A stretch of 20,089 bases of DNA, taken from positions 1-20,089 of IMG/VR virus record IMGVR_UViG_3300009011_000065; one strand, given 5' to 3'. The DNA is from a virus. A program made the position numbers and the translations under genes. The notes under the pieces were generated by a model. The model was not told the DNA's origin and did no database searches. It saw nothing but the letters and a program-made list of their open reading frames with translations. The first letter of the stretch is position 1, and each line of letters starts with the position of its first letter. Below are positions 3,086 to 18,889 of the stretch, piece by piece.

Positions 3086-6000
3086 ATGGCCGACCAACAG
3101 GTCCAGGGAATGCTGGTCCAGATCGAGGCGACCACCGCCCAGCTGCGTCGGGAGTTGGCCAATGCGGATCAGTTGGTCGCGCGGTCATCCCAGGCGATTG
3201 ACCAGAGTCTGGCTAAGGTCGATTCGGCTTTTGATCGAGCTGGCGCAGCAGCGCAGCAAGCCGGCACTCTCATGCGCGGCGCTTTCGCGGCAGTGGCCGG
3301 CGCCGGTCTGATCGGTAGCATCATCCAGCAAGTTGACGCCTATGGGCAGATGTCTGACCGGATGAAGGCTGCAGCTGGTAGCGCAAGTGAGTACCAGCTG
3401 GTTCAGGATCACCTGCTACAAACTGCGCAGGAAACCTACCGTCCTCTGGCTGAGGCGCAAGAGCTGTACATCCGCACTGCTGACGTTATGCGTAGCCTGG
3501 GCTTTAACACCCAAGAGACGTTGGATATCACGGATAGCTTCAGCTTTTTGCTGGTGACCAACGCCGCGGCTGCAGATAAAGCTGGGTCGGCCTTGGATGC
3601 CTATTCGAAGGCGCTGCAGACCGGCAAGGTAGAGGCGGATGGCTGGGTTTCCATTCAGGACGCCATGCCGACCATCGTCACTGCGATTGCCACCGCCACC
3701 GGCAAGAGCGCCGAGGAAATCCGAAAGCTCGGCGTGCAGGGTAAGCTGTCGCTCGAAGACATCAATACTGGCCTGCTGCGCACCGTGGAGGTCAACCGCA
3801 AGGCTGCGGCCGACATGTCCACCAGCGTTCAGGACGCGATGGTGAACATCAGCAACGCCATTCAGGCGTTCTTGGGCGGCATGGAGGAGCAAACCGGCAT
3901 CGTCGCAGGCTTTGCGAACGTGCTGATTGCGCTGGCTGACAATGTGGACCTTGTGGCCGTGGCCATGGGCGGCGTCGGTGCAGCTGCGCTGACCAACTAC
4001 GTTGTGAAAACTGGGCTGGCCGTGCAGGCGGCGCGGGCTGACCGGGCCGCACGAGTTGCCCAGGCTGAGGCAACACTGCAGTCGGCGATAGCAGATCAGC
4101 GGAAGGCTCAGACGGCTACCATTCTCGCTGAGCGGGAAGCGATTGCGGCGCGAGGCACCGCAGTTCAGACCCAAATGTCCATCCAGCTTGCGACCGCGCG
4201 GACAAAGGAGGCCGCAGCAACCACCGCAGTAGCAACTGCTCAGTCTGGCTTGAAGGCCGCTTCGGCCGGTCTCCTCGCAGGCTTGGGAGGTCCGATGGGG
4301 CTGGCGATCCTCGCAGGCACTGCCGCGGCAAGTTTCCTCTTGCTTCGTGACAACGCGGACCAGGCTGGGGTCAGTCTGGAGGACATGCAAAAGCCCTTAT
4401 CCCAACTGCGGGAGGAGTTCCAGAAGCTCAACCAGGACCAGCGCGAAGCTGCCCTGGTGAAATGGCATCAGGAGCAGATTAACGCTACGGACAAGGTCAG
4501 GGATGCCTACGGAGATCTTGCCCAGGCAATACGCTCTGCGACAGTGACAGCTCCTGTTCGCGACTCGGGCGGCCAGTACAACAAGCAGCTTGCCGATTAT
4601 CAGGGGATCATCGATCGGCTGAACGAGGCTCGTTCCTCTGGTGCCAACCTTGCCCCGATCCTCAAGGAAGTGGGTAGTCGCCTGCAGTTGCCGGCGGCTA
4701 CGTTGCAGAGTTGGATCACGCAGGCCGGCGCCGTCAGCGATGCAGATCAGCGCTCAGGCCTGATTGCCGAAACCTTGCGTGTCCTCACTGGGGTCACCAA
4801 GGAAAACACAGTCGCGACCGAAGCGAACAATGCCGCGAAGAGCGGCATGAGCAGCGCTGGCCAGACTTACTTGGAAACTCTGCAGAAGCAGCTCGGCGGC
4901 CTGCAAGACAACAATGACGCGATTAAGATCGCGAACCGCTACATCGCCGAGAATGCGGACCTCACCGAAACAGATCGCCAGGCCATCCTGTCGGCAGCTA
5001 ACGCCATCGAGGCGCAGAAAAAGGCCAATGACAAGGCGAACAAGTCCAAGCGCGAGGGGGAATCAAAGTCTGAGCAGGCTGCCAAGAAGCAGCTGACGGA
5101 TTTCAAGGCGGCAGAAGAGGGCTACAAGCGCCAGATCGAACTGATCAACACCACTGGTGACAAGCAGAAGAACGCCACGGAAGTCGCGAAACTCTCCTTC
5201 GAGCTTCAGGAGGGCAAGCTCGGCAATCTGTCGAAAGCCCAGCAAAAGCGCCTGCTTGAGTTGGCCGCCGAGCTGGATACCCTGAACAAGATCAAGAAGG
5301 CCAACGAAGACGATCTAAAGCTCAGCGCTTTCAAGGCTGCTCAGCAAGCCGGCACGCAGTCGGCGGTAAATGGCTATGCGCAGGAGCTGGCCGGAATTGG
5401 CCTGGGGGACAAGGCCCGCGACCGTATGCGGTCTGAGCTGGCACTGCGTCAGAAGTATGTCGAAGACCTCCAGTCCCTGAATGAGCAGCGGAACACCGGG
5501 CAGATTGAGCCGGAGCTGTATGCGAGCGAAACGCAGGTCCTCCAGGAGGAGCTCGACAAGAGGCTGGAAGCTCAGCAGAACTACTATGCGGCGATTGACG
5601 AGCAGCAGTCCAACTGGATGAACGGCGTTCGCGAAGCGTGGGCGAACTTTGCCGACGAGGCGCAGAACTATTCAGCCCAGGCTGCCGATTTGACCAACAG
5701 CACCCTCGGCAGCGCCAGGGGTGAACTGAGCACCTTCCTAAAGGATGTTGCGACCGGAGCGGAAGATGCTGGCGATGCACTGAACAACATGCTGGGCGGG
5801 TTTGCAGAATCTGTCCTCAACGCGCTGGCCGACATGGCGGCGCAATGGCTGGTTTACCAGGGCGTGCAGATGCTCGTCGGAAAAACGACCCAGCTCAGTG
5901 CTGCTGGGATGATGAGCGCGAATGCCCAGGCAACCGCGTTGCAGGCCGGCCTCGCTGCCTTTGCATCTACCGCTGCCATTCCGATTGTCGGTCCCGCCTT

Positions 6001-11414: not shown

Positions 11415-11435
11415 GCCCGCTTAAGCGGGCTTTTT
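11415..11435 (+). terminator. Intrinsic terminator with adjoining ribosome binding site cassette
   Basis: GCCCGC (11415-11420), loop TTAA and GCGGGC (11425-11430) form a perfect 16-base palindrome followed by five Ts. The sequence then goes directly into GTTGCCTGGAG, the ribosome binding site of the tail fibre gene. It ends the tail-tip unit and opens the adhesin region. Confidence 0.85.
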
Positions 11436-11451
11436 GTTGCCTGGAGTTTTT

Positions 11452-13755
11452 ATGAGCGGAGCCACCGACGTTCAGCTTTTCAACCAGCTTGTGTCCAACG
11501 CCAATGCGCTGTTCCTGTCTGACGCTGATTTCGTCACGATCAATGGCATTACAAAGCCGACCTTGAGGAAGATTTACGCCGAGTTCCTCGCCAGCGTGGG
11601 CACCTACCCAACTGTTGCCGAGGGCCTGACGAAGACCAATGGAACCGGAACAGACAACCGTTTCTTCTCGGTGCCCTCCACTGGTGACAAAGCAGAGACC
11701 CGCTATCGCAACGACGCCGGGGTCGCGGTTGAAATCAACTCGATTCTCTCGTTTGTCGCGGACGGCTTAACGATCAATCGGGGCAAGGGATATCCGCTGC
11801 GCCAGAAGATCCGCGCCGGGGTGACTTCGGCCCTGAGCTCAGCGTGGAATAAGTCGATTCTCGCGGTGGTCGTGGTAAACGCCAGGCAGGGTGAGTACTA
11901 CCGCATCTCGTACCAGGCAAACGAGAACGGTGGGAATGGCTTCAACTGGATCATCGAGAAATACGACTCTGCCACCTACGCGACAACCGCTGCCGGCCGG
12001 GTTGAGCTGATCCCGCTTGCGGGTACGCAGCCGCAAATTACCCGGTCAGGCGGTATTCAAACTGTGGTGCTGGTGCCGACCTCCCGGCCGGAAATGCAGT
12101 TCAAGATCACAGTTGATCCTGCCGGGCTTCCAGCGGCGGGAACCCCGATCAACTCCAACTCCAACTCGGCGTTCGATGCCTGGTCCTGGATCATCGACGA
12201 GAGCTGCTACACCTACGCTTCCGAATACAAGTCGCCACAGATCGACACGCTATCTATCAACGCTAGCAAGGTGTTCCCGCTCAGTCTGGCAACGCCACGA
12301 AATGCCACGGTTAGTGCTGATTATCAGCCGTTTCGCGACCTCTTCCTCGACATCGAGGTGCTTGGTGCAGAGGACGGTAAGCTGTACCGGGTAGCCTATA
12401 TCACCTGCGCTGCGGTGGTTGGATCTGGTGGCGTGGTGGTGACTGGCTTGTCGTCAATCGGCCTGATCCTCGAGGAGTTCGACAAGGCGACCTATGAGAC
12501 GGCGTCTGTCGCGGTTCGCCTGCAGCACTTCACTACCATTGCCGGGACGCTCAAGCGGGCAGGGGGGATCCAGACCCTAACCGTGGCCACTACGGTTAAG
12601 CAGTATGTGAAGTTCAAATTGACGGTCGACGGCAGCAAGCTTCCGGCCGATGGCTCCGCCTACGCGGCGGTAAACACGGGGTTCCCTGGCTACAGCTGGA
12701 TCATCGACGAAAGTCGCTACAAGCAAGCTATCACCGCCATTCCAACCGGGGATGGCCAGAAAACCGGCGTCTACTACACCTACAACGCAACCACGAAGGC
12801 GCTGACCTACGCCTACGTGTCGGGCGATTACGCCTACCGTGTGACGGTCAGGCCCGCAGCGATCAACAGCTTGCCGAACTTGACCCGGATCGACAGGGCT
12901 CCCAAGGTCGCCGATCTCTCGGCAGCTACCTGGACGACGCTGAGCGATGTGGAAACCGACTACCTGCCACCGATGATCGTTCAGGCCCTGAACAATGGTG
13001 ATTCTGCTCCCCGGTATTACACCGGCGGCGCTCATGGCAGCGACGGCAATGCCGGCGGTGTGGCGACGGCCAAAAACGTGCTGTTCGCCATCTATGCCGA
13101 TGGGCAACTGGTGGAAAAGACGAACTCGGGCTACGTAAACAGCCTGGAGTGCATGATCATCGACCACCTGTTCGCCTACAACACCATCAGCCTCGGTCGC
13201 TATGTTATGCAGCAGGCATTCTCGCTGAACATGTCTGGCAGCGGCATGCAGATCGATGCGGAAATGACCGCGCTTGAGCCCGTGGCTGTCAGCGTAGACA
13301 ACGGTCCGCAGGCATATTTTGGTGGGTTCAATGATACCCAGATGCTGCCCGATTCTCAGCTGCCGACGCGGGTAGCTCTTGACGCAACCCAGTTGAGTGG
13401 ACCGCGGACTGCCTACCCGAAGGCCTGGTTGCTGCTGATGAAGTCAGGTAACGGGACAATGGCCTGCTGGGTTGACCGCGGCTATGAAGCAGGCGATGGG
13501 CGATACGTCTCCCCAGGAGCCTCATTCATTCGCGGAGGTCAAGAGCCTGGCGGCCCGTTCCGAGCCAAGTTTTACAACGCCATCGTCGCCGCGATGTCAG
13601 CAACGCTCAGCACGGGCGAAAGCTACAAGTGGCGGGGCGGGTACCACTTCTTCTCAGACACGGCTGAATCTGGATTCGATACTAAGGCAGCCCTGACAGT
13701 TGGAAGCAGGAAGCTGGTAGCGGTCACCACTGCTGGTGCGAGCTTGGCAGTTTGA
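11452..13755 (+). CDS. Tail fibre / receptor-binding protein with duplicated domain
   Basis: From ATG 11452 (CTGGAG at 11441-11446) the product has 767 residues. The first ~105 residues look like a virion-anchoring N-terminus shared by many Pseudomonas tail fibres, including DNRFFSVPSTGDKAETRYRN. Residues about 137-253 and 297-423 are two copies of one domain; each has GGIQT, a 'FK.TVD...LPA.G' strand and ends in WSWIIDES.Y or YSWIIDESRY. The rest (430-767) has no family I recognise. It contains ECMIIDHLFAYNTISLGRYV and a C-terminal KWRGGYHFFSDTAESGFD and likely holds the receptor-binding head. Position after the tail tip and before lysis supports the fibre role. An upstream in-frame start at 11434 lies in the terminator and is rejected. 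Confidence 0.8.
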   Translation: MSGATDVQLFNQLVSNANALFLSDADFVTINGITKPTLRKIYAEFLASVGTYPTVAEGLTKTNGTGTDNRFFSVPSTGDKAETRYRNDAGVAVEINSILSFVADGLTINRGKGYPLRQKIRAGVTSALSSAWNKSILAVVVVNARQGEYYRISYQANENGGNGFNWIIEKYDSATYATTAAGRVELIPLAGTQPQITRSGGIQTVVLVPTSRPEMQFKITVDPAGLPAAGTPINSNSNSAFDAWSWIIDESCYTYASEYKSPQIDTLSINASKVFPLSLATPRNATVSADYQPFRDLFLDIEVLGAEDGKLYRVAYITCAAVVGSGGVVVTGLSSIGLILEEFDKATYETASVAVRLQHFTTIAGTLKRAGGIQTLTVATTVKQYVKFKLTVDGSKLPADGSAYAAVNTGFPGYSWIIDESRYKQAITAIPTGDGQKTGVYYTYNATTKALTYAYVSGDYAYRVTVRPAAINSLPNLTRIDRAPKVADLSAATWTTLSDVETDYLPPMIVQALNNGDSAPRYYTGGAHGSDGNAGGVATAKNVLFAIYADGQLVEKTNSGYVNSLECMIIDHLFAYNTISLGRYVMQQAFSLNMSGSGMQIDAEMTALEPVAVSVDNGPQAYFGGFNDTQMLPDSQLPTRVALDATQLSGPRTAYPKAWLLLMKSGNGTMACWVDRGYEAGDGRYVSPGASFIRGGQEPGGPFRAKFYNAIVAAMSATLSTGESYKWRGGYHFFSDTAESGFDTKAALTVGSRKLVAVTTAGASLAV
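11860..12210 (+). repeat. Tail fibre domain repeat, copy 1
   Basis: This codes for residues about 137-253 of the tail fibre, from the ILAVVVVNARQGEYYRISYQ strand to IIDESCY. It aligns by eye with copy 2 through GGIQT, FKITVDPAGLPAAG and WSWIIDES. The protein-level similarity is clear while the DNA has diverged, so the duplication is old. Confidence 0.7.
12340..12720 (+). repeat. Tail fibre domain repeat, copy 2
   Basis: This codes for residues about 297-423, from LFLDIEVLGAEDGKLYRVAY to IIDESRY. It contains the same ordered landmarks as copy 1 (LYRVAY, GGIQT, FKLTVDGSKLPADG, YSWIIDES) plus a short insertion near GSGGVVVTG. Confidence 0.7.
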
Positions 13756-13764
13756 GATCAGGCG

Positions 13765-13791
13765 CCCCGCTCATTTTGAATCTGAGCGGGG
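13765..13791 (+). terminator. Hairpin between the convergent tail fibre and HEPN-like genes
   Basis: CCCCGCTCA (13765-13773) pairs perfectly with TGAGCGGGG (13783-13791) around a nine-base loop, ten bases after the tail fibre stop. Only TTA follows, so the U-tract is poor. It sits between converging genes and probably ends or protects the fibre transcript. The opposite strand also lacks a T-run. Confidence 0.6.
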
Positions 13792-13803
13792 TTATAGCCA
13801 GAA

Positions 13804-14262
13804 TCACCATTCTGGATTTATGTGATTTTTCAGCTCGATGCATGCTGCAACCAAGTCTTGAACGCAAGCGTCGTGGCCTAAGTGGTATCCGCGAGAGTCG
13901 ATCTGGGTGGAAGTCAGATCAGCGCGTACAGGTCCTTTAGTAATTGTGAATTGATCCTGCCATTTGTGATTTCCGTCAATATACTCATCGAAGTGCTCGC
14001 GCTTATTTCGTACTTCGATTGCTTCTTTAGACGCTACGACAAAAGCGGCAGCAGCTCTGGCTACTTCCGAGATCGGAGAGTTTTTCGACAGGTACTTGCA
14101 GATCCGATGCAGCATGGTTACAGACGTGAGGAAAAAATGCTCATCTAGAACACGGCGCTGGACATGCACATTCGATGGGCCAGTGACGAGGATTTCCCCG
14201 ATGCGGATAGTTTCGTCTGCCCAGCCTATTGCCAGATGCTGAAGGTCTTCATGATCCCACAT
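13804..14262 (-). CDS. HEPN-like protein inserted in the tail fibre region (152 aa)
   Basis: This is a minus-strand gene among plus-strand late genes, with an excellent ribosome binding site (AAGGAG eight bases before ATG). The 152-residue protein looks alpha-helical in its first two thirds. It contains EVRNKREHFDEYI, in which Arg85-Asn86-x3-His90 is a perfect Rx4H motif of the HEPN type ('RN...H'). That motif is the active site of many HEPN ribonucleases in toxin-antitoxin, abortive infection and CRISPR effectors. Helices upstream (LTSVTMLHRICKYLSK) and downstream (DACVQDLVAACIELKNHI) fit a HEPN-type bundle. A beta-like segment (QFTITKGPVRADL) interrupts. I infer a defence or superinfection function; the fold is not proven. 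No clear promoter or partner gene is visible. Confidence 0.65.
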   Translation of the reverse strand: MWDHEDLQHLAIGWADETIRIGEILVTGPSNVHVQRRVLDEHFFLTSVTMLHRICKYLSKNSPISEVARAAAAFVVASKEAIEVRNKREHFDEYIDGNHKWQDQFTITKGPVRADLTSTQIDSRGYHLGHDACVQDLVAACIELKNHINPEW

Positions 14263-14345
14263 GGATCTGCTCCTTGACAGATGGAGGCATGAGGTTAGCA
14301 GGTGAGCCCCTTTTTGGCCGCTTGGCCATTCAAATATGTAAATCC

Positions 14346-14369
14346 AGCCCGCTCAGTGCGGGCTTTTTT
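14346..14369 (+). terminator. Intrinsic terminator with adjoining ribosome binding site cassette
   Basis: AGCCCGC (14346-14352), loop TCAGT and GCGGGCT (14358-14364) are followed by a run of six Ts (14364-14369) and then GTGCCTGGAGAAAAC and an ATG. No plus-strand gene ends just upstream; the minus-strand HEPN-like gene starts there. The cassette therefore looks like a leftover module joint. Confidence 0.8.
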
Positions 14370-14384
14370 GTGCCTGGAGAAAAC

Positions 14385-14435
14385 ATGGCCAGACTGAAAC
14401 CCAGGCCGGAGGTGCGAACGTGCTCCGGTTTCTAG
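14385..14435 (+). CDS. Very short leader ORF (16 aa) after the terminator/RBS cassette
   Basis: ATG 14385 lies at ideal distance from CTGGAG (14374-14379) and opens MARLKPRPEVRTCSGF, which ends at TAG 14433-14435. The frame overlaps the GTG start of the next small ORF. Translation starting here could feed that ORF by coupling. It could also be the start of a broken larger gene. It is too short to judge by composition. Confidence 0.35.
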   Translation: MARLKPRPEVRTCSGF

Positions 14436-14605
14436 CCCTGTTTATCTTTTCCACAGGCATCTTTTCGATTGAACCCGGCGATGGTGCGCCTATGAGATGG
14501 ACCCGAAGATGGCCAGCGGTGGCCCGGCTGAGATGCCCACGGACTGGGGGCACTGTTCCGTGTACTGCCGAGCTGTGTGCCAGAGCAGGCCCGTTGCCCA
14601 TCTGA
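14420..14605 (+). CDS. Small protein with hydrophobic N-terminus (61 aa), unknown
   Basis: GTG 14420 is preceded by CCGGAGG with a seven-base gap, a very good ribosome binding site. The 61-residue product begins MLRFLALFIFSTGIFSIEPG, a hydrophobic stretch that could be a signal or a single membrane segment. The rest is Arg/Cys-rich, including CPRTGGTVPCTAELCARAG with four cysteines in a short span. It is bounded by two terminators, so it forms its own little transcription segment. Its place just before tailspike and lysis genes leaves room for a membrane or lysis-related role, but I see no holin signature. AGA codons and an overlapping open frame (14497-14751) weaken the call. Confidence 0.4.
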   Translation: MLRFLALFIFSTGIFSIEPGDGAPMRWTRRWPAVARLRCPRTGGTVPCTAELCARAGPLPI

Positions 14606-14655
14606 AATCGAATGGCCAGTGCTATCGGCCAGGCTTGCAGCAACACCCAAATCTA

Positions 14656-14678
14656 ACCGCCGATGGCGGTATTTTTTT
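14656..14678 (+). terminator. Intrinsic terminator with adjoining ribosome binding site cassette
   Basis: ACCGCC (14656-14661), loop GAT and GGCGGT (14665-14670) are followed by A and seven Ts. The sequence then enters ACTTGGAGAAAACCC and an ATG. The stem differs from the neighbouring GCCCGC type, but the layout of terminator then TGGAG is the same. Confidence 0.8.
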
Positions 14679-14693
14679 ACTTGGAGAAAACCC

Positions 14694-14765
14694 ATGCCTT
14701 TCCACGACAAAGTTACTCTTTCTGGAGCCAACGCTCTCGAGCAAATGGTAGAGGGGGATGTTTGA
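14694..14765 (+). CDS. Short ORF (23 aa) coupled to the tailspike gene
   Basis: ATG 14694, four to eight bases after TTGGAGAAAA, opens MPFHDKVTLSGANALEQMVE plus GDV and ends at TGA 14763-14765. The A of the stop is the first base of the tailspike ATG (TGATG). Two explanations fit. It may be a coupling leader peptide that controls tailspike translation. Or it may be the stub of an earlier adhesin N-terminus left by module exchange. The ribosome binding site is good, but nothing shows a function of the peptide itself. Confidence 0.45.
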   Translation: MPFHDKVTLSGANALEQMVEGDV

Positions 14766-16513
14766 TGACTGCCTCAGATAAAATGACTCAGAACACAAAT
14801 GCCTTGCCACAAGTTGACGATGCCAACGATGCCGCAAATGTGGTTTATGATCCCAACGGCCCAGGACAAATCAATCGTTCTGTCCGAGATCGGTTACGCG
14901 ATGTGGTATCGGTTAAGGACTATGTCGATGGTTCTGTAGGTGGGGTAGCACTTAGTCAAGCCGGCTTAGAGGCAGCTACTGCTGCTGCTGTCGCCATTGG
15001 GGCTGATCTATATTGGCCAGCGGGGCCAGTCCCGCTAGTAAGTAATCAAACTATTCCGGGGCTTCACTCTGTTCGTCACCTGGGTGCAGGGAGTATCAGA
15101 GCGGGCTCGAACGTCTTCAATCTTCAACCTTCAAGTACCGATGTGAACAAGCTCTATATGGCGCCGGGGGGGACGGGTGACGGCTTGAGTTCAGAACGCC
15201 CCCTTAATGGTTTCTCTGGCGCTCTAGCAGCGTTGCGGAATTATATGCCGCTTTGCGGGAGGTGGATCGTCGTTGGCGCAGCCGGAATCTATAATGAGGC
15301 TGTCATTTTGCCAGACTGGCTGGCCAATGGTGCAAACTATCTATCTTTCGAATTCCCGTCAGTTGGAGGCTCTCAGGTCGAGCCAAGTGCCTACACTGCT
15401 TTCCTTGATGGATCGGGCTTGAGTGCCTTGAACGGTTTTAACACCGGGCAGGGGAACCGAGTAAGCATTACTAATCTCTGCATACGAAATTGGTACGACC
15501 CAGCGTTATCGAATGTTCAACAAGTCCGGCGTGCGTTGGCTGTTCCTTCAGGTAGCGTAGCATTCGTCCAGAACTGTGGGTTCTATGGAAACGGTTTGTC
15601 CAATATCTCTGCTCTACCGGGTGGGTCAGTAACAGTCTCCGGAGGGGTCTCGGATGGGGCTCGGTATGGTTTGGATAATACGGGAGGGCGCATGTCACTG
15701 AGTGCTAGCAGTTCAACCTACTCTATTGTTAGAAATGCACTTGAGTACGGGTTGTACTCTAAGCACGATTCCAGTACGGTTTTCGATTACACCGAGTTTC
15801 GTAATAATGGTCGAGTGCCGGCTGCCGCAGCATATGGCGCAGCTCTTTTTGGTTATAAATCTAACTGTTCTATTGATACGCGAGGCTGTAAATTTTATCA
15901 AAATAATATTTGTTGGAACCTTCGCGGAGGGTTTGGCGCGGACAACCCGGGGATCCCCGATATCTATGGGGTAGGGGCGGAGGCGAATGTCCGACGGTAC
16001 CTATGTCGTGCTGGAGGGGTAGATGATCTCTCGCAGTATAGGTCGAATCGTTGGAGCGATATTACACTTAGGTATACAGGAGGGTCGATTACCGGCACCG
16101 GAGAGGCAACTGTTTTAAGTGGCGTCGCGGCAACACGCGCTGGATATGTGGCTGATCAGGATCAGGCAATTCGTATGATCATGACTTGTCGAGCCCAATC
16201 AGCAGACGGACTTTTTACACCGACCATTCGCTTACTTAACGGTGAGTCTATCCCTCTAGGTACTTACCGGGTCGCCTCTGGATCTTACGGTCGTATTGAG
16301 ATTTTTATGCGTCCAGCAAGTTCTCGTAATGCTTTCCAGTTGCAGTTTTCGTGCGTGGGGGCAACGCAAAATTTAGGTGGTGCAGTAGGCCAGATCTTGT
16401 CTGGACACATAGATCTTCCGCATGCGGGACTTACTTTCGATGTCGCTGCTCGTTCTCTTAGCGAAAGCGGTGTCGCTGTGCTTCACAGCTGTAACGTTGA
16501 GTTGAGTGGTTGA
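14765..16513 (+). CDS. Tailspike protein, pectate-lyase-like beta-helix type
   Basis: From ATG 14765 the product has 582 residues. The N-terminus holds the virion-attachment/linker motif of phage tailspikes (VVYDPNGPG, then NRSVRDRLRDVVSVKDY at about 37-53). DLYWPAGPV at about 85-95 is like the 'lyfPaG.Y' strand at the start of pectate-lyase-type helices. The middle (about 160-440) is Gly/Ser/Asn-rich with short repeating strands, as in right-handed beta-helices. The last ~130 residues (from TGSITG-like strands to HSCNVELSG) may be a trimerisation or carbohydrate-binding cap. Such proteins bind or cleave surface polysaccharide; catalytic residues cannot be named. GAGGGGG precedes the start. 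The gene is visibly richer in A/T than its neighbours, suggesting horizontal exchange. Confidence 0.78.
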   Translation: MTASDKMTQNTNALPQVDDANDAANVVYDPNGPGQINRSVRDRLRDVVSVKDYVDGSVGGVALSQAGLEAATAAAVAIGADLYWPAGPVPLVSNQTIPGLHSVRHLGAGSIRAGSNVFNLQPSSTDVNKLYMAPGGTGDGLSSERPLNGFSGALAALRNYMPLCGRWIVVGAAGIYNEAVILPDWLANGANYLSFEFPSVGGSQVEPSAYTAFLDGSGLSALNGFNTGQGNRVSITNLCIRNWYDPALSNVQQVRRALAVPSGSVAFVQNCGFYGNGLSNISALPGGSVTVSGGVSDGARYGLDNTGGRMSLSASSSTYSIVRNALEYGLYSKHDSSTVFDYTEFRNNGRVPAAAAYGAALFGYKSNCSIDTRGCKFYQNNICWNLRGGFGADNPGIPDIYGVGAEANVRRYLCRAGGVDDLSQYRSNRWSDITLRYTGGSITGTGEATVLSGVAATRAGYVADQDQAIRMIMTCRAQSADGLFTPTIRLLNGESIPLGTYRVASGSYGRIEIFMRPASSRNAFQLQFSCVGATQNLGGAVGQILSGHIDLPHAGLTFDVAARSLSESGVAVLHSCNVELSG

Positions 16514-17684: not shown

Positions 17685-18080
17685 TTAATTGGTTTCGTTC
17701 TCTATTATGCTAAAAATACTTGTTACATTTTTTACTTGCGACATTGCTTCGGTGTTTGTAATGTGCTCGTCTAAAAAATAATCCGCTCTAACTCGTAGTG
17801 CGTGCATTGCATGTATGCGTGTTCCGAGTCTTCTGATTGTAGCTTGTCTTTCTTTATTTTGGCATATGAAGTTGCATAGTGTATCTGAAAGTTTTATGTG
17901 TGATCCACCTTTCATATTGCTAACCCCTAGGCTAAGGTTTTGATCTGCTAGGTGAAGAGTCTCATGGTAGGCGCTGTAATATGATCTACTTACAATGTTT
18001 CGGTGGTCGGTCTCGCTCAGGTTGCTACACGTCAGCAACTCTTGAGACCAAATCAGGAAGCTTTTTGAGGTGATTGGCAT
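17685..18080 (-). CDS. UPF0332/HEPN-like protein, second gene of a TPR-HEPN pair
   Basis: The 131-residue protein shows the pattern of small HEPN proteins of UPF0332 type. SRSYYSAYHETLHLAD at 31-46 matches the family's 'SRaYYaafHaa..ll'. LRVRADYFLDEHI at 95-107 matches the late helix 'LR..ADY'. Between them are GGSHIKLSDTLC, like the family's 'KHs....f' turn, and an additional R88-x4-H93. HEPN proteins are often RNA-cleaving toxins or defence effectors, or their non-catalytic relatives. The gene starts 26 bases after the TPR gene on the same strand, with only a weak GGA upstream, so translation likely depends on the TPR message. A/T content is much higher than in the phage structural genes, suggesting acquired cargo. 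Function is inferred from family type and context only. Confidence 0.7.
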   Translation of the reverse strand: MPITSKSFLIWSQELLTCSNLSETDHRNIVSRSYYSAYHETLHLADQNLSLGVSNMKGGSHIKLSDTLCNFICQNKERQATIRRLGTRIHAMHALRVRADYFLDEHITNTEAMSQVKNVTSIFSIIENETN

Positions 18081-18106
18081 ATGTCAGATCCGTTGATCAA
18101 TATTTT

Positions 18107-18889
18107 TCAATGGTTGCCGTCAGTTTGCGCCCTGTGGTACGGAATGAAAACGTACATAATGTCTTTGAGTATGTGGCACGCATCTGAGTCAACAATACGA
18201 TCGCACAGCGTCTCATTGAGTTCATGTATTAGGCTGGCAGTGCCCTCTACTGCAGCGTAAAAAGTCACTGTTGAACCGCCGTAATTGTCGGTTCTTCTGA
18301 AGTTCCCTTTTTCGAAACTTATGTCTCTATCGCGCATGACGCTGGCTGCGATTTTGTAGATTCTATTCGCGTCTTCGTCAGATATGTTATTCTGCTCAAA
18401 TAGTGATGCAAGTTGTAAGGTTGCTCTGGCGTTAATATTTGCTTCAAGTGCGTCGAGGTCTATTGTATTAAGATTGCTCTTGACGGTATCGGAGAAAATT
18501 CGCGGCTTGAATATTATCTGGGCAGCTTCAGCGAGGTCAATCAATGTATAATGATCTGGCGATAGTTCGGCTGCTACTTTATAATGAAGGCAGGCTTCTT
18601 CAGGTTTTTTGAATTTAGTAAGTGCGTGAGCGTAGTTTGTATGAATGTTGTGGTCGTTAGGGTCGAGTGTTAATGTTTCTTCAAATGTAGAGAGTGATTT
18701 TTCTACGTTGTTCTCGATGGTATATAAAATCCCAAGGCAGATTCGTGCGGCTATAAAGTGCGCGGACTCTAGATTTTTAATGTCACGACGAAGTCGTGCG
18801 GAAGTGAATTGGTCTAGAGGGGAACCTGAGTTAGCAAGAATATTTAGTTCTTCTACTAAGGTATCGCTTATTGTTTTTGCCACAGCCAT
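18107..18889 (-). CDS. TPR-repeat protein, first gene of a TPR-HEPN pair
   Basis: This 260-residue protein has at least two tetratricopeptide motifs. One covers about 44-77 (ICLGILYTIENNVEKSLSTF to LDPND). The other covers about 78-111 (IHTNYAHALTKFKKPEEACL to LSPDH). Further helices fill the N- and C-terminal parts, the latter with DRDISFEKGNFRRTD and YHRAQTDGNH at the end. There is no signal peptide or membrane segment, so it is cytoplasmic. TPR repeats bind protein partners; the natural partner here is the HEPN-like product downstream. It might sense infection, hold the HEPN protein inactive, or scaffold it. ATG 18889 is preceded by GGAG at good spacing. Codon use is AT-rich, unlike the late genes. 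I do not recognise a named family for the full length. Confidence 0.78.
   Translation of the reverse strand: MAVAKTISDTLVEELNILANSGSPLDQFTSARLRRDIKNLESAHFIAARICLGILYTIENNVEKSLSTFEETLTLDPNDHNIHTNYAHALTKFKKPEEACLHYKVAAELSPDHYTLIDLAEAAQIIFKPRIFSDTVKSNLNTIDLDALEANINARATLQLASLFEQNNISDEDANRIYKIAASVMRDRDISFEKGNFRRTDNYGGSTVTFYAAVEGTASLIHELNETLCDRIVDSDACHILKDIMYVFIPYHRAQTDGNH

Follow-up and report, generated by a model that had tools for sequence, protein, structure and literature searches.

HEPN proteins are often toxins (PMC3710099, PMC4621449), and their active-site motif is placed at the end of helix 3 (PMC3710099). A prophage-borne representative is Tha, the HEPN RNase defence of the S. aureus prophage 80alpha, which is described as being shut down when the prophage is induced, chiefly through an inhibitor protein, Ith, and in minor part by antisense transcription (PMC11087260). 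Comparable genomic settings are reported from other phages: Salmonella prophages carry accessory genes antisense to lytic genes and with a promoter of their own (PMC7067206), and P2-like phages are described as having variable defence hotspots (PMC9122126).

Here we consider a gene, P0001, in a 20,089-base virus record, the whole of which is referred to below as the window and whose weak DNA matches to Pseudomonas phages suggest a host of the Pseudomonas group. We propose, at a probability of about 0.5, that P0001 is a single-gene accessory ('moron') cassette encoding a HEPN-like RNase that is expressed in the lysogen for superinfection defence.

An antisense gene at a variable site

P0001 (13804-14262, minus strand) encodes 152 residues from an ATG start that is preceded, at a distance of 7 nt, by the Shine-Dalgarno sequence AAGGAG (14270-14275, minus strand). 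A sequence-only reading of the window had described a minus-strand frame of this length with a strong ribosome-binding site, running against the late genes between tail fibre and tailspike, and this description holds: the flanking frames, the tail fibre at 11434-13755 and the tailspike at 14663-16513 (phrog_27277, tail spike, E 1.2e-245 in PHROGs), are both on the plus strand. Between the convergent stops of the tail fibre and P0001 lies a 9-bp G+C-rich inverted repeat without a T run (13765-13791), recognized from its sequence and folding energy. The G+C content of the gene (0.49, and 0.50 at third positions) is below that of the tail fibre gene (0.585 and 0.72, respectively) and similar to that of the tailspike gene (0.508 and 0.52).

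A scan of viral contigs recovered one relative, P0002, in locus L002 (IMGVR_UViG_2551306350_000004), which is 52% identical over all 152 residues. Two further viral contig scans for relatives of either protein returned L002 alone, two scans of genome contigs yielded no relative of P0001, and tblastn of phage and plasmid records gave nothing for P0001 or for P0002. The differences between the two genes number 58, 43 and 93 at codon positions 1, 2 and 3 (dN 0.434, dS saturated). Judged by this peak of changes at third codon positions, P0001 is a real, conserved protein-coding gene under purifying selection.

P0002 is flanked on one side by a tail gene and on the other by the endolysin-Rz genes, and runs opposite to them. 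Just upstream of the P0001 start, window positions 14346-14433 match, at 77% in DNA, L002 positions 1699-1604, which is the stretch between P0002 and its endolysin. Also retained here in the window is a residual endolysin gene start (14393-14482, plus strand; 60% over 30 aa by tblastn, E 2.6e-08, together with the DNA match to L002), the intact counterpart of which adjoins P0002 in L002. On the strength of the matching upstream DNA and of the endolysin-start remnant beside P0001, sequence comparison places the two genes at the same ancestral position; the window's tailspike-endolysin block would have arrived beside P0001 later. Another endolysin-start remnant between tail fibre and tailspike is seen in locus L004 (about 5541-5651, plus strand). 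Upstream of the remnant in the window is a repeated cassette of terminator and Shine-Dalgarno sequence (14346-14387, plus strand). Four copies of terminator, Shine-Dalgarno sequence and start codon occur in the window, at 11431, 14364, 14671 and 16558 (plus strand), standing before the tail fibre, the endolysin remnant, the tailspike and the endolysin, respectively. Their sequence, TTTTTTGTGCCTGGAGAAAACATG, searched with up to 7 mismatches, occurs 0.02 times per sequence in 50 base shuffles, and these copies may be borders for module exchange.

The site is occupied differently in related phages. The sister phage L005 (the same contig as L006), the tail fibre of which is 93% identical in protein to that of the window, lacks the cargo: its DNA similarity to the window breaks off at 13759 and returns at 14674. 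The absent segment (13760-14673) comprises P0001 and the endolysin-start remnant. A profile of P0001 and P0002 matched one of 22 related virus records, namely that of L002, which was itself found via the protein; 12 further loci, being duplicate or short contigs, lay outside this profile search, and a phmmer screen of 36 loci gave matches in L002 and the window's own copies alone. Among 27 loci gathered via the tip protein J, 17 extend to the lysis genes, and in six of these, read by eye, the interval from the last tail gene to the endolysin holds a gene on the minus strand. Four encode an AT3-SGNH acyltransferase (L013, L014, L016 and L017; identified by Pfam in L014 and L016 and by shared sequence in the other two, with L016 and L017 looking like near-duplicates), which possibly modifies surface antigens in the lysogen; the others encode a 274-aa protein (L022) and an IS30-like transposase, named by eye (L030). 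The 274-aa protein (16586-17410 of L022, minus strand) occupies the same antisense site, looks unrelated to P0001 and has a match in phrog_19381, a family of unknown function. It contains the sequence LRNRAVHKGY, another R-N-x3-H pattern, by which it may tentatively be called HEPN-like.

The presence of the gene in one of the 22 related records, the empty site in L005 and the variable antisense cargo of other sister phages bear out the earlier suggestion of accessory cargo, and we consider it very probable that P0001 lies outside the phage core. The same evidence bears on a virion or lysis-related function exercised from the opposite strand, e.g. as a tail-fibre helper: while P0001 does lie among tail and lysis genes and its place is kept in L002, it opposes those genes, is absent from 21 of the 22 related records searched, and is lacking in L005, whose tail fibre and tailspike are of the same kind. 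This function appears highly improbable, and a structural role was rejected given the absence from 21 of 22 records and from L005. Phage cargo sites also hold counter-defence genes, and P0001 could in principle act against host systems in this way; against this, it opposes the late genes, has no early-gene context and has no match in PADLOC, though PADLOC lists defence rather than counter-defence genes. We regard such a role as quite improbable.

The conserved motif and the predicted fold

The sequence-only reading had assigned P0001 to the HEPN type on account of the string RNKREH, which indeed forms residues 85-90 and can be written correctly either as RN-x3-H or as R-x4-H. The predicted active-site motif, R85-N86-K-R-E89-H90-F91-D92-E93 (codons 13984-14010, minus strand), is identical in P0002 and falls where helix 3 ends in the structural model. 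Such patterns recur in a background of 582 ORFs, 120-200 aa in length and taken from the window and related loci: Rx4-6H in 323, R[polar]x3H in 63 and RNx3-5H in 12. Since 323 of the 582 carry Rx4-6H, the bare pattern is not beyond chance and was discarded as evidence for a HEPN domain. Both P0001 and P0002 have R85-N86-x3-H90, with a polar residue after the arginine as in the HEPN R-x4-6-H motif, a feature that is weak evidence when taken alone. The longest run identical between the two proteins, V84-K100, spans 17 consecutive residues and includes the motif, and in this pairwise comparison it is the conserved block, not the motif alone, that carries evidential weight. The acidic residues D40 and E41 of helix 2 (33-61), the helix in which HEPN proteins may have an acidic residue close to the motif, are likewise identical in the two, but are not invariant in the wider set of proteins described next.

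Two DNA-pattern scans of viral contigs, with RN-x2-EHFDE and then RN-x2-EH-[FY]-DE-x-x-D, gave 38 motif ORFs, of which 23 were kept as distinct plausible proteins. From the 19 stretches of the first scan 11 were kept; L039 was set aside because its contig is that of L002, and seven were dropped by judgement as short ORFs in a different context (L041, L044, L046, L055 and L057), as ATPase-like (L045) or as a fragment (L051). These eight, together with fragments or off-motif ORFs (L066 and L067) and near-duplicates (L061, L071, L073, L075 and L076), make up the 15 excluded from the 38. The retained proteins are of about 180-240 aa and come from phages or prophages; the neighbours read by eye include integrases (L053, L058), an FRG-like gene (L047), terminase-like genes (L056, L072) and, in one case, tail fibre and lysis genes with the motif gene between them (L062). 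One set member has relatives on seven plasmid records (six annotated 'hypothetical protein', one record without annotation), and no plasmid-record relatives were found for another.

All 11 kept first-scan proteins, as well as P0001 and P0002, have [LI]D after the motif, though this was absent from the first-scan pattern; P0001 matches R-N-x2-E-H-[FY]-D-E-x-[LI]-D with the sequence VRNKREHFDEYIDG. In an alignment (A3) of 21 of the 23 set members with P0001 and P0002, from which the trimmed L054 and L074 were excluded, R, N, E, H, D, E and D are invariant across the 23 sequences, an invariance that is partly built in because the same residues served as search terms. The full hhalign comparison of P0001/P0002 with the set scored 45.3, versus at most 43.0 in 100 motif-preserving shuffles. 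With the motif masked, scores fell to noise level in hhalign and in a further masked comparison, so the link between P0001 and the set consists of the motif and the order of structural elements. Among the set members scanned, Pfam gave no match above cut-off, NCBIfam none for eight and PADLOC none for three, and PHROGs returned weak matches alone for nine; the motif, searched as text, was not found in the open library of literature covered.

P0001 itself matches no family in Pfam or NCBIfam, searches that a diverged HEPN domain can escape by sequence alone, and no entry in PADLOC. PHROGs yields weak matches alone (unknown function or tail completion, E at least 0.044), and PDB sequences give chance-level matches alone. 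A model from the two-row alignment (mean pLDDT 72.9, with the C-terminal third of low confidence) predicts helices at 4-27, 33-61 and 65-89, a strand pair at 106-115 and a helix at 128-148, with H90 directly after the helix 65-89, i.e. helix 3. In a second model, headed by the set member L069 and built from a 23-row alignment including P0001 and P0002 (pLDDT 90.7), R117-H122 lies at the end of helix 114-121, with H122 just past it. Foldseek with the P0001 model retrieved generic four-helix bundles, all at E of at least 0.33 and with no HEPN chain among the 50 matches listed, an absence that carries no weight against a HEPN fold; a search against viral structures gave weak matches. With the L069-headed model, the HEPN structure 2hsb ranked first (E 0.91), 4nqf third and 1wol 42nd among the matches listed, all of them at E of at least 0.33 and not significant. 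VIA listed 1jog, 7bxo, 6m6w, 5yep and 4nqf among 50 matches to the same model, the first four of which we take to be HEPN chains; the Z scores of the HEPN chains (5.2-5.8) are in the range of common helical arrangements, and unrelated bundles score as high or higher.

Of the earlier HEPN assignment, the part that stands is the conserved motif, which two predicted models place where helix 3 ends, while no profile or fold match reaches significance. P0001 is thereby predicted to be a compact helical bundle with R-N-x3-H at the end of helix 3, as in a HEPN-like metal-independent RNase, and on the models and motif together it probably has a HEPN-like fold and active site. These results can be read differently, with P0001 as a non-RNase helical bundle for lysogenic conversion that modulates the host or excludes phages by binding, the RNxxEHFDE residues being structural or binding ones. 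The generic four-helix bundles among its fold matches and the want of a catalytic family match accord with this, as does the surface-modifying acyltransferase at the same interval in L013, L014, L016 and L017, which implies that the cargo of this interval can be something other than a defence RNase. Set against it are the R, N, E, H, D, E and D residues invariant in the 23 aligned sequences, which look catalytic though they were partly search terms, and the predicted placement of the motif where HEPN proteins have their active site. We consider this non-enzymatic function possible, if rather unlikely.

The window contains a further candidate locus after the Rz gene (17685-18889, minus strand; G+C 0.417), where a 131-aa ORF adjoins a 260-aa TPR protein. 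It had been counted with P0001 as giving two HEPN-type loci in one phage, a claim which finds weak support: the 131-aa ORF (17685-18080, minus strand), a match to phrog_5176, weakly matches a solved 'HEPN domain-containing protein' (E 0.15) but nothing in Pfam. The post-Rz site of sister phages also carries candidate defence genes (L004, 8919-9788, minus strand; L025, 14214-15077, minus strand; L016, 19602-20348, plus strand), with matches to FRG domain/PDC-S15 (E 8.8e-34), AbiEii (E 2.1e-4) and, weakly, HepT-like (E 0.0048) families.

Proposed role and comparison with known systems

The proposal of a lysogen-expressed RNase can be framed as a sequence of steps. As a consensus scan found no sigma-70-like promoter for P0001, its production in the lysogen from a promoter of its own is a step that we infer. 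On infection by another phage the protein would cut RNA and the infection would be stopped, either abortively or as superinfection defence; we give even odds that P0001 defends the lysogen by RNA cleavage. Because the gene is antisense to the late genes, late transcription after induction would cross it, which could lower its expression and spare the resident phage.

A wider generalization is tentative and, in our estimate, rather unlikely: RNxxEH(F/Y)DExxD might mark a widespread, uncatalogued family of HEPN-like RNases acting as single-gene prophage defences, of which P0001 would be a compact antisense member shut off by induction through transcriptional interference, without an inhibitor protein. 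If true, an unnamed HEPN-like family would join the known kinds of prophage-borne defence, a simple motif would be at hand for finding its members, and the locus would make it possible to test cleanly whether a gene's antisense position in a late operon is enough by itself to prevent self-targeting on induction.

The comparison with HepT of the HepT-MntA (HEPN-MNT) system rests on the small size of a HEPN-type protein with an R-x4-6-H motif. By this likeness P0001 might be the toxin of an addiction (toxin-antitoxin) module that stabilizes the prophage, a role consistent with the frequency of toxins among HEPN proteins (PMC3710099, PMC4621449). HepT, however, has an MNT partner gene, whereas none is seen beside P0001 or P0002, each of which stands alone between late genes; by eye, the flanks of P0001 are late genes and the endolysin remnant, with no MNT nucleotidyltransferase gene among them, and L002 is likewise. 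No sequence similarity to HepT was found either. A toxin-antitoxin pair was rejected for want of a visible partner, and we hold the addiction role to be unlikely.

Returning to the proposed defence RNase, Tha shares with P0001 a prophage-borne HEPN-type protein, antisense transcription next to phage genes and a single effector gene. Tha has an N-terminal part of residues 1-167 (PMC11087260), whereas P0001 comprises 152 aa in all, and Tha is encoded in the cI operon together with ith, an inhibitor gene in antisense, whereas P0001 is in the late region, is itself antisense and has no inhibitor gene in sight. Membership of P0001 in Tha was rejected, as architecture and position differ. STMMW_20121 of ST64B likewise lies opposite to lytic genes and is comparable in the expectation of an own promoter (PMC7067206); its expression was seen by RNA-seq, whereas that of P0001 is predicted. 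The RNxxEH(F/Y)DExxD set (L040-L076), found in phages, prophages and plasmids and unnamed in the libraries searched, shares with P0001 the motif, placed where the third core helix ends, a similar order of helices and strands and single-gene cargo contexts; it differs in that its members are longer by about 30-80 aa and have no significant similarity to P0001 outside the motif. P0001 is a plausible further case of a known type of dormant-virus cargo, and the uncatalogued motif family is an interesting lead.
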